IMG/VR virus record: IMGVR_UViG_3300021961_000459
Location: 1-28,621 of that record
Length of the DNA stretch: 28,621 nt
Reading direction: 5' to 3' (one strand)
Source of the DNA: a virus
A program made the translations under genes and the position numbers. The notes below the pieces were generated by a model that had not been told where the DNA came from, did no database searches, and saw only the letters and a program-made list of their open reading frames with translations. Positions 24,280 through 25,955 of the stretch are shown here, one piece after another. The first letter of the stretch is position 1. The number at the start of each line of letters is the position of its first letter.

Positions 24280-24442
24280 CATCATCTCCATCGTAAAATA
24301 CTTCGTCGTAGTCTGAAACGTAAGGTGCTATTTCTTCATAACTTGGTTTATAAGCATCAACATCAGAATAAATCTCTGACTTTAGACACTCAACCAGAGA
24401 CTCAAGGTTTCTCACAATTAATTTGAGTTTTTCTCTGTCCAT
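24263..24442 (-). CDS. Conserved acidic small protein upstream of thyX, 59 aa
   Basis: Function unknown. It has an N-terminal amphipathic helix (MDREKLKLIVRNLESLVECL) and a very acidic, Tyr-rich C-terminus (YVSDYDEVFYDGDDDGYPD). I recall similar sequences next to thyX in other cyanophages. The start at 24442 lies about 15 nt after the expected transcription start of the promoter at 24465-24493; longer versions of the frame run back through that promoter and its terminator and are not credible. The gene leads the thyX transcript and overlaps thyX by 17 nt. Confidence 0.75.
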   Translation of the reverse strand: MDREKLKLIVRNLESLVECLKSEIYSDVDAYKPSYEEIAPYVSDYDEVFYDGDDDGYPD

Positions 24443-24506: not shown

Positions 24507-24689
24507 CTATTGTAAAATCCTCCGACATTCTCTCTTGCATGTTGTCTGGTCATCATCGCATTCAATCAGGCAGTTGTAGTAATCATTAATGAGATCAGAT
24601 TCCTCTATGCTCCTTTCTAAAGTTTTTCCCAATCTCGTAACACTTTGGTTCCATCCTGCTAATTGATTGTGTGAAATAAGATTATGCAT
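24507..24689 (-). CDS. Small Cys-containing protein, 60 aa
   Basis: Function unknown. The protein is helical and polar. It has four cysteines in its second half (residues 39-57, in NCLIECDD and TCKRECRRIL), which could form a disulfide pair or bind metal. The ATG at 24689 has a GGGGG box about 5 nt upstream and is preferred over a TTG four codons earlier. It appears to be a single-gene transcription unit: a sigma70-type promoter at 24757-24784 and a terminator right after its stop. Confidence 0.7.
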   Translation of the reverse strand: MHNLISHNQLAGWNQSVTRLGKTLERSIEESDLINDYYNCLIECDDDQTTCKRECRRILQ

Positions 24690-24826: not shown

Positions 24827-24849
24827 AAAAAAAGGGAGACTAATCTCCC
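24827..24849 (-). terminator. Rho-independent terminator of the micro-operon
   Basis: On the minus strand GGGAGA-TTAG-TCTCCC, a 6-bp stem with tetraloop, is followed by seven T. The stop codon of the 51-aa gene (TAG, 24842-24840) lies inside the loop, so a terminating ribosome would cover the hairpin. Confidence 0.85.
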
Positions 24850-24995
24850 TCAAAATTAAAAAGTTTTTCAAACCACTCATCCAAATGAATGAGATAACAC
24901 GACCAATATTTACAACCCCTATATGTTAATTGATAACATGCGGGAGGTCTGTTATCCTTGTCCATATCATCATTATGATATGTGTAGTTTTCCAT
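24840..24995 (-). CDS. Small YRGxKY protein, 51 aa (DUF4278-like)
   Basis: This gene is too short for usual gene calling. It reads MENYTYHNDDMDKDNRPPAC, then YQLTYRGCKYWSC and an amphipathic C-terminus (YLIHLDEWFEKLFNFEGD). The LTYRGCKY core matches the cyanobacterial DUF4278 type, whose hallmark is a short YRGxxY strand. A second copy of the same core is in the 45-aa gene upstream. Its ATG overlaps the stop of the 28-aa gene (TAATG), and its stop lies in the terminator loop. Three cysteines cluster around the core. The role is unknown; the coupling and terminator support it as a real gene. Confidence 0.7.
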   Translation of the reverse strand: MENYTYHNDDMDKDNRPPACYQLTYRGCKYWSCYLIHLDEWFEKLFNFEGD

Positions 24996-25081
24996 TACTT
25001 ATTCAGTAATAGAACTTCTGCATAAATTAAAAAGATGAATGCTGTTGATGCTCCAGTAATTGCAGCAATTGTAGCAATCAT
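24995..25081 (-). CDS. Tiny single-span membrane protein, 28 aa
   Basis: The whole protein is one hydrophobic segment (MIATIAAITGASTAFIFLIY) followed by AEVLLLNK. That is the size and style of small photosystem or cytochrome b6f subunits and of phage membrane micropeptides, but I do not recognise it as any named subunit. The start overlaps the stop of the 45-aa gene (ATGA) and its stop overlaps the next start (TAATG), so it is translationally coupled on both sides. This makes it very unlikely to be chance. Confidence 0.65.
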   Translation of the reverse strand: MIATIAAITGASTAFIFLIYAEVLLLNK

Positions 25082-25215
25082 TTGTGCCCTTCCTTTACAT
25101 ACTTAACACCACGATAGGTTTCGTTGTATTGTTGGGGTTGTTGCATCATTTGCTGCTGATACTCCAGACGCTTCTGAGTATCATATTCGATGCCACGATA
25201 TACGACTTTAGACAT
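25078..25215 (-). CDS. Small YRGxKY protein, 45 aa (DUF4278-like)
   Basis: The first gene of the micro-operon encodes MSKVVYRGIEYDTQKRLEYQ, a Gln/Met-rich linker, and YNETYRGVKYVKEGHK at the end. Two YRGxxY motifs occur in one chain (YRGIEY and YRGVKY), the pattern of DUF4278 proteins of cyanobacteria and their phages. A textbook AAGGAG box sits 8 nt before the ATG, the strongest in this region, so high translation is expected. It follows a long structured leader. Function is unknown. Confidence 0.8.
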   Translation of the reverse strand: MSKVVYRGIEYDTQKRLEYQQQMMQQPQQYNETYRGVKYVKEGHK

Positions 25216-25343
25216 TAGGTTTTCTCCTTAAGTGTTTAGGTTAAAGAGCGTTCCTTCAGTCGGCGTTTGCGTTCGCTATTTGAGAATAGCGAATGAACGA
25301 TCCGTTCCGCGTCGGCTTACTTCCGTCCCATAGGGATGAACGT
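25216..25343 (-). promoter_or_regulatory. Structured 5' leader RNA of the micro-operon
   Basis: This roughly 128-nt leader is richer in GC than its surroundings and contains no gene. On the minus strand it holds a TCCC-TAT-GGGA hairpin (25336-25326), a GAACG-GAT-CGTTC hairpin (25307-25295) and a perfect 9-bp hairpin TTCGCTATT-CTCA-AATAGCGAA (25293-25272). Two direct repeats of GCCGAC...GGAACG (25316-25303 and 25264-25249) flank the last one. It ends at the AAGGAG box of the 45-aa gene. It may be a regulatory leader or a small RNA with its own function; no known riboswitch class is recognised. Confidence 0.6.
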
Positions 25344-25349
25344 GAGGTC

Positions 25350-25378
25350 ATTATAGACCTATTGGACTATATATGCAA
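25350..25378 (-). promoter_or_regulatory. Sigma70-type promoter with dyad around the -10
   Basis: On the minus strand TTGCAT and TATAAT are 17 nt apart. The -10 lies exactly between the arms of a perfect inverted repeat AGGTC-N6-GACCT (25345-25360), a possible operator. It drives the leader and the three small genes down to the terminator at 24827. The stretch 25379-25405 shows only an AT-rich inverted repeat after the glutaredoxin-like gene. Confidence 0.72.
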
Positions 25379-25405
25379 ATTCTTTTGTAAAATGTGATAC
25401 AAAAT

Positions 25406-25645
25406 TTAAATGATTTCGTTTTCTTTAAAATATTGCAAAGTTTCTTTCATACCACCAACATGTTTAAACCCAATGTTAATTTGTGGGTATTCAGCCTTTG
25501 GACCAAACTCTTCTTCAAATCCCCTTTGAGTAAAGTGTTGATTCAGTTTATATTCCAAGAACTCTCCACCAAGAGATTTAAGGAGCATTGCTATACGCTC
25601 ACACTCTTGACTTCCATTAGAATAAATTACTACTGTTTCAGTCAC
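25406..25645 (-). CDS. Glutaredoxin-like protein lacking the first active-site Cys
   Basis: This 79-aa protein has a glutaredoxin fold: VTETVVIYSNGSQECERIAM, then LEYKLNQHFTQRGFEEEFG, the cis-Pro loop AEYPQINIGFKHVGG, and a C-terminal helix. In place of the CPYC site it has S-Q-E-C, so the nucleophilic first Cys is missing and only Cys15 remains. A classical dithiol reaction is therefore unlikely. The start is best placed at the GTG at 25645, with GGAGG 4 nt upstream; upstream ATGs in frame have no such box and lie inside the previous gene. It overlaps that gene by 8 nt. A canonical paralogue is at 28042-28278. Confidence 0.78.
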   Translation of the reverse strand: MTETVVIYSNGSQECERIAMLLKSLGGEFLEYKLNQHFTQRGFEEEFGPKAEYPQINIGFKHVGGMKETLQYFKENEII

Positions 25646-25955
25646 GTTGCCTCCAGTCATCAGGTCTATCTTCATTAAACCAATCTACAATCTCATCGGC
25701 ACTTCCAAATCCAGTGCGATGATTTGATGGGTCAGGATCACCTAATCCCATTATATTCATAAAGTCATCAAGACTACCTTCTACCATATCTGGGTTGGCA
25801 GCACGGTGTCTTGCTTTTTTAAGCATCTCTCTTGCAGAAGTATTTGCCTTAGCAAGTTTTTCTGCCCAAATCATATCTTCCAATTTAACATCTTCACCAG
25901 TTACAATACACTTACAAATAAACTCCAAACGGAGTCTGTATTGGGTTGAGAGCAT
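25638..25955 (-). CDS. Conserved cyanophage protein of unknown function, 105 aa
   Basis: I do not recognise a function. The N-terminal two thirds are helical (LRLEFICKCIVTGEDVKLED, then MIWAEKLAKANTSAREMLKK and ARHRAANP). The acidic C-terminal part is Asp/Gly-rich (LDDFMNIMGLGDPDPSNHRT) and ends in WFNEDRPDDWRQRD. It overlaps the glutaredoxin-like gene by 8 nt and is 1 nt after the 63-aa gene, so all three are probably one transcript from the promoter at 26170-26198. No Shine-Dalgarno is evident. Confidence 0.75.
   Translation of the reverse strand: MLSTQYRLRLEFICKCIVTGEDVKLEDMIWAEKLAKANTSAREMLKKARHRAANPDMVEGSLDDFMNIMGLGDPDPSNHRTGFGSADEIVDWFNEDRPDDWRQRD

Follow-up and report, generated by a model that had tools for sequence, protein, structure and literature searches.

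Glutamine riboswitches provide many cyanobacteria with an RNA-based means of sensing their nitrogen status. In cyanobacteria these riboswitches are associated with DUF4278 (PMC6316151), the domain that forms the N-terminus of IF17, a glutamine-synthetase inactivating factor whose synthesis is raised by glutamine (PMC6316151). IF17/gifB of Synechocystis combines DUF4278 with an IF7-like part. The type-1 glutamine riboswitch is represented by RF01739 (glnA-type), and tandem glnA RNAs are known (PMC2864571). The type-2 glutamine riboswitch (Downstream-peptide, RF01704) is often located before short open reading frames (ORFs). Glutamine riboswitches are also borne by phages. A glnA RNA has been noted in cyanophage S-CREM1 (PMC9964418), where the 99-nt match has the length of the composite aptamer described below, and another in phage Melnitz, but here before ssrA, beside the tmRNA (PMC9004378). 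The accessible parts of these two accounts make no mention of a composite fold, of nested ORFs or of a YRG micro-operon.

The window, i.e. the whole stretch of DNA analysed here, is a 28.6-kb IMG/VR viral fragment (28,621 nt), in which thyX, phoH, gp32-like and baseplate genes are neighbours as in T4-like cyanophages. Three tiny coupled genes of 45, 28 and 51 aa, joined by ATGA and TAATG overlaps between a promoter and a terminator, were found where the original prediction had placed them. We consider it likely, with a probability of roughly 0.7, that they form a T4-like cyanophage micro-operon under a glutamine riboswitch taken over from a cyanobacterial host. The features of the locus are as follows.

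25350..25379, minus strand: sigma-70-type promoter, -35 TTTGCA, 18 nt, -10 TATAAT (25355-25350), 10/12 matches
25345-25360, promoter region: palindrome AGGTCattatagACCT enclosing the -10 element
25249..25342, minus strand: putative composite glutamine aptamer, whole (RF01739 scores; covariation and energies in relatives)
25338..25342, minus strand: 5' strand CGUUC of the outer P1, pairing with 25253-25249 (composite fold in the MFE structure)
25326..25336, minus strand: P2A hairpin UCCC-UAU-GGGA, 11 nt
25318..25325, minus strand: J2/3 CGGAAGUA, canonical binding-core sequence that fits the RF01739 consensus
25310..25314, minus strand: 5' strand CGACG of the composite P3, covarying with 25265-25261 across 184 loci
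25295..25307, minus strand: internal hairpin H3, GAACG-GAU-CGUUC, whose strands could alternatively be P1 strands of a tandem pair of aptamers
25272..25293, minus strand: P2B hairpin UUCGCUAUU...AAUAGCGAA, 22 nt
25261..25265, minus strand: 3' strand CGCCG of the composite P3 (CGACG/CGCCG combination in 18 loci)
25249..25257, minus strand: J3/1 GAAG and P1 3' strand GAACG, the canonical GAAGGAACG of RF01739
25224..25248, minus strand: predicted hairpin CUCUUUAA/UUAAGGAG pairing the ORF1 Shine-Dalgarno sequence AAGGAG (25229-25224)
25215-25078, minus strand: ORF1, 45 aa, DUF4278-like YRG...YRG protein (PF14105, E 6.7e-4; phrog_5049, 3e-10)
25081-24995, minus strand: ORF2, 28 aa, transmembrane peptide of the AFxxLIYxEvxLLxK family, ATGA overlap with ORF1
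24995-24840, minus strand: ORF3, 51 aa, YRGCKYWSCY protein, conserved (24 alignment columns invariant among 13 sequences), TAATG overlap with ORF2
24851-24832, minus strand: intrinsic terminator, 8-bp stem and T-run

In 44 of 91 relatives, a TATAAT box lies within the 30 nt that precede the first P1 strand, most often at a distance of 13-16 nt. The palindrome around the -10 element varies on both sides between phages (AGGTCTATAATGACCT, TGTGTTATTATTAACACA, GGTATGCTAACATACC) and is seen in many IMG/VR loci; it is possibly an operator for phage-specific repressors. The riboswitch operon lies mostly between nrdB and talC in marine Synechococcus phages (L133-L146) and adjoins thyX in the window and in P-SSM2, a region of nucleotide and carbon metabolism. 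Downstream in the window are small conserved cyanophage ORFs of phrog_665 (24507-24689, four cysteines) and phrog_878 (24286-24442), with a near-perfect promoter (24493-24465) and a terminator (24499-24481) between them. Upstream, at 25406-25675, a glutaredoxin-like protein (phrog_22) is encoded which has SNGSQEC in place of the usual CPYC.

Regarding the leader, Rfam at its gathering threshold gives no match in the window, so that the switch is visible only at a relaxed threshold. There, the leader contains two RF01739 matches, one covering 25301-25245 (33.6 bits, E 5e-5) and the other 25342-25303 (23.1 bits), with E-values of 2.1e-7 and 1.0e-6 when the record is searched alone. The better score lies just below the gathering score of 35; relatives exceed it with 53.7 bits (a single aptamer, L178), 37.2 bits (a composite aligned as one) and 35.6 bits. 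We claim a diverged RF01739 variant and not a standard member, since the aptamer is composite, is split for the model and stays below the cut-off. RF01704 scores 15.5 bits in the window and does not reach its gathering score of 33, and some relatives score about equally for both types. Photosynthesis-related RNA families have no match in the window. The leader had been described simply as structured; the structure is present, but the description was incomplete, as the leader corresponds to a glutamine riboswitch at the relaxed threshold. With RF01739 the window shares P1 (CGUUC/GAACG), P2, CGGAAGUA and GAAGGAACG, and the core is completed by P3, a long-range composite helix of which 4/5 pairs are formed. 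As in cyanobacteria, DUF4278-type small genes are located downstream (PMC6316151). The phage RNA differs from RF01739 by a longer P3 arm, which includes a second P1-like hairpin as well as a second P2, and, in relatives, by whole ORFs in the P2 loops.

The same RF01739 elements precede ORF1 relatives in DSL-LC02, S-SRM01, P-SSM2/P-SSM5 and single-cell marine viruses. An aptamer is located upstream in 80/80 window-like ORF1 loci (72 detected, eight CGUUG/CAACG variants recognised by inspection) and in 63/64 ORF3-first loci; the IMG/VR loci came from searches requiring part of the leader, or the YRG or ORF3 proteins, and the proportions are proportions of these samples. At the level of sequence, we show that the leader carries a glnA-type glutamine aptamer core, with a DUF4278-type gene and the tiny genes coupled to it downstream.

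The three ORFs are widely conserved. ORF1 relatives are present in at least 391 confirmed IMG/VR stretches, ORF3 relatives in at least 375 IMG/VR loci and 38 GenBank phages, and ORF2 in at least 26 contigs with 75-96% identity. Relatives keep the order ORF1 > (ORFb) > ORF2 > ORF3, as the original prediction had asked to be checked, and the ORF2-ORF3 spacing (TAATG) is identical in 47/49 loci. Broken reading frames or a lack of selection on the peptides had been named as refuting observations; instead, the frames of all three ORFs are intact and median dN/dS is far below 1 (ORF1 0.037, ORF2 0.20 and ORF3 0.066 in 73, 41 and 61 distinct sequences, respectively), with third-position excess. Judged by these coding signatures, ORF1, ORF2 and ORF3 are genuine genes under purifying selection in relatives. 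Two of them carry the expected YRG motifs (YRGIEY/YRGVKY in ORF1, YRGCKY in ORF3), and the middle gene indeed encodes a bare hydrophobic (transmembrane) helix. The view that gene callers would miss most of the operon was partly borne out: ORF3 lacks an overlapping annotation in many S-RIM8 records, but ORF1 and ORF3 are often annotated.

Concerning protein families, ORF1 scores 20.4 bits against DUF4278 (PF14105), below the Pfam gathering score of 25.3; its homolog at the same place in L031 reaches 31.1 bits. ORF3 scores 13.1 bits against PF14105, also below the gathering score, and has only the YRGxxY motif in common with it; its structure model is poor (pLDDT 64). Pfam, PHROGs, NCBIfam and PDB sequences gave no known function for any of the ORFs. 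ORF1 resembles IF17 as a YRG/DUF4278-type protein under a glutamine riboswitch, but its 45 aa comprise the YRG part only, and an IF7-like glutamine-synthetase-binding region was not found in the window operon. Unlike IF17, most phage relatives have a separate ORFb of about 31 aa, a basic helix encoded between ORF1 and ORF2, which overlaps ORF1 by 4 nt in 80/80 window-like loci and is absent from the window. Four ORF1 matches (L129, L130, L131, L132) are located on contigs that are labelled as genomes of Rhodospirillaceae, Dehalococcoidia and Prochlorococcus. Because phage-type composite leaders are present, we treated them as phage and not as host sequence; they are likely cyanophage contigs inside bacterial assemblies. 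In Marine virus AG-345-E15 (L005, 1680-1881), a strong manA RNA (162 bits) lies directly 3' of the YRG gene.

The leader is best read, from comparison with its relatives, as a single composite aptamer, with the second P1-like hairpin and the second P2 lying within its P3 arm. The outer P1 would then consist of the first 5' and the last 3' strand, with P3 joining the two halves. An alternative, considered first and lowered on the P3 covariation, is a tandem of independent glutamine aptamers (A then B) that bind one glutamine apiece and together give a steeper response. In the window A and B receive separate Rfam scores, CGUUC/GAACG is kept in all four P1 strands, and glnA RNAs in tandem have been reported (PMC2864571); we nevertheless regard this arrangement as unlikely. 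In A the canonical J2/3 CGGAAGUA is present but the 3' P1 strand is not preceded by GAAG, B contains GAAGGAACG but lacks the GUA of J2/3, and because each unit alone misses one part, the full core exists only in the composite. Moreover, the tail of A and the head of B covary. Across 184 loci with 22 distinct combinations, the first pair of the composite P3 is G-C in 100, U-A in 67, A-U in 14, G-U in two and mismatched in one. On average 0.79 of the composite P3 is paired as compared to 0.52 after shuffling, a value reached by 0/5000 shuffles, and sliding the register lowers pairing from 0.80 (plain leaders) or 0.90 (ORF-bearing leaders) to 0.03-0.40. An A x C mismatch is frequent at the third P3 pair. 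Of 54 distinct plain leaders, 53 have a lower predicted energy as a composite than as a tandem, the average difference being 2.9 kcal/mol. The linker between the inner strands has hairpin-loop length (3-6 nt) in 246/255 leaders scanned, always so where found, and H3 is part of the MFE structure of most plain leaders. Single canonical aptamers in close relatives (L178; L213-L221) show the core of the composite with the inner module absent, and in L213-L221 P1 is altered on both sides to CGUUG/CAACG. Covariation does not separate tandem from composite P1, because the P1 strands are invariant. As the fold of the window leader is no more stable than shuffles (z -0.92), the case for the composite rests on the comparison with relatives. 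An exchange between the composite and the tandem folds may itself be the switch. The 22-nt hairpin of the window P2B (TTCGCTATT...AATAGCGAA) is shared with other phages, serving as P2A in part of them and as P2B in the rest (L051, L060, L077, L099, L100, L104); those of its non-P2 matches that were inspected are the reverse complement of the same sites.

By analogy with the host gifB leader, a rise in glutamine would let the aptamer form and free the ribosome-binding site of ORF1, which would make it an ON switch. In the off state this site would be paired, as predicted folds suggest. The ORF1 Shine-Dalgarno sequence is paired in the predicted folds of 92% of 48 relatives, a raw figure without shuffle control; since the hairpin in the window is no more stable than shuffles (z -0.16), its sequestration is something we infer. 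The AAGGAG box had been taken as a sign of high expression. Because a riboswitch precedes it and it is predicted to pair with upstream sequence, the box is no evidence for this. Once made, the YRG protein might tune host nitrogen assimilation together with the small proteins coupled to it, as IF17 would suggest.

The sub-threshold Rfam score of the window and the lack of excess stability would also fit a host riboswitch that has decayed to a remnant, retained for its structure or as a spacer, and no longer switches. Such a remnant is improbable, however, given that the core and its compensatory pairs are conserved over hundreds of viral loci, that one lineage has changed both sides of P1 (CGUUG/CAACG) and that the association with YRG genes is constant. 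A different role was proposed in the original prediction, in which the membrane helix and two soluble partners assemble into a complex that targets a host membrane or photosystem. This would suit a conserved bare transmembrane peptide encoded together with ORF1 and ORF3, but we found nothing that supports it and consider it very unlikely. No tie of the peptides to photosystems was found, Pfam, PHROG and NCBIfam gave no function, and both the regulation and the family context (DUF4278/IF17, PMC6316151) point to nitrogen metabolism.

In the window both P2 loops (11 and 22 nt) are empty of ORFs. Many relatives of the riboswitch carry a 60-70 aa ORF in P2A, and most an ORF of about 50 aa, of phrog_504 type, in P2B. 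The distance from the P1 5' strand to J2/3 is bimodal among distinct inserts: in P2A 95 are of up to 47 nt and 60 of 186-225 nt, with none of 60-130 nt; in P2B 54 are of up to 29 nt and 113 of 138-230 nt, with two intermediate. Of 173 distinct inserts of 138-230 nt, 172 are an ATG-initiated ORF filling the loop. The ATG stands just after CGUUCA and its frame is open to the aptamer core in 172/173, as against 1/346 for the other two frames. The loop ORFs (49-69 aa) have a hydrophobic start and two cysteines in common. They often end in ...DAND or ...DAKAD, for which the aptamer itself supplies the codons (GACGCAAA...GAC) and then the stop (UGA/UAA). Leaving out the aptamer overlap, their median dN/dS is 0.22 in the first loop and 0.24 in the second, and no counted pair reaches 1. 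The P2 stems closing the loops show two-sided changes (UCCCA/UGGGA, UCUAU/AUAGA, UCUUA/UAAGA, UCCUA/UAGGA), and in the second loop the first four pairs are kept in 100% of cases versus 87% after shuffling (0/5000 shuffles). At least one base of the AUG is in the contiguous P2 stem in 78/94 nested ORFs. Based on the alignments, we show that P2A and P2B in relatives are loops carrying complete small ORFs, whose start is usually in the P2 stem and whose last codons are in the aptamer core. A fold search with a loop ORF model (helical, pLDDT 77) gave no significant match.

In these relatives, the geometry suggests that the aptamer fold would hide the start of the loop ORF, so that loop and downstream ORFs would be expressed reciprocally. 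We tentatively propose, at somewhat less than even odds, that the riboswitch has been turned into a gene-carrying device: with glutamine the loop gene would be off and the downstream genes on, and a ribosome on the loop gene would keep the aptamer open and the downstream genes off. The loop ORFs could instead be passengers in a loop that tolerates any insert, with translation and riboswitch action mutually independent, which we hold to be possible though doubtful. It is the P2 loops that vary in the aptamer, in 16/94 nested ORFs the AUG lies wholly outside the contiguous stem, and the first-aptamer loop ORFs show no SD-like tetramer. Passengers of any kind, however, do not account well for inserts that are always of the same ORF type, with nothing of 60-130 nt in A and only two intermediates in B, for a stem kept in addition to the coding constraint, or for a nearly fixed AUG offset of 9-12 nt (once 16).

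Hypothetical cyanophage families are hereby placed in a context. Phrog_504, phrog_6471, phrog_545 and phrog_5049 (e.g. syn9 gp196-gp198) comprise loop ORFs and downstream YRG ORFs, and we found no description of their place inside riboswitch loops. In 14/14 phages, picked protein-first down the phrog_504 ranking, phrog_504 is located inside the second loop; the first loop is also ORF-sized in syn9 (gp196), S-CAM1, S-IOM18 and S-TIM54. The open-access papers searched yielded no description of ORFs inside a glutamine aptamer, which is no proof of absence.

Among cyanobacteria, 72 of the 201 sampled genomes have RF01739 matches (family of a picocyanobacterial locus). The host aptamers inspected have short P2 hairpins and P1 CGUUG/CAACG, as compared to CGUUC/GAACG in the window. 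Canonical host aptamers precede either YRG-repeat proteins of 66-74 aa or basic peptides of 37-42 aa (15 host loci); the latter recall the basic helix of phage ORFb and are possibly IF7-like factors. Phrog_504 was found in 0/201 picocyanobacterial genomes by a search that was positive in syn9 and two viral contigs, and a host origin of the loop ORFs was rejected on this ground.

That T4-like cyanophages share a rebuilt switch ahead of a conserved micro-operon suggests that, during infection, phages read the nitrogen state of the cell. Since short P2 hairpins are expected by Rfam-type searches, ORF-bearing aptamers are missed by them. The nested-gene form would represent a new riboswitch architecture, with a conserved ORF in an aptamer loop and bases constrained both as codons and as RNA structure. 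It would provide a regulatory context for some of the commonest cyanophage genes of unknown function, such as phrog_504 with its 316 GenBank phage records.
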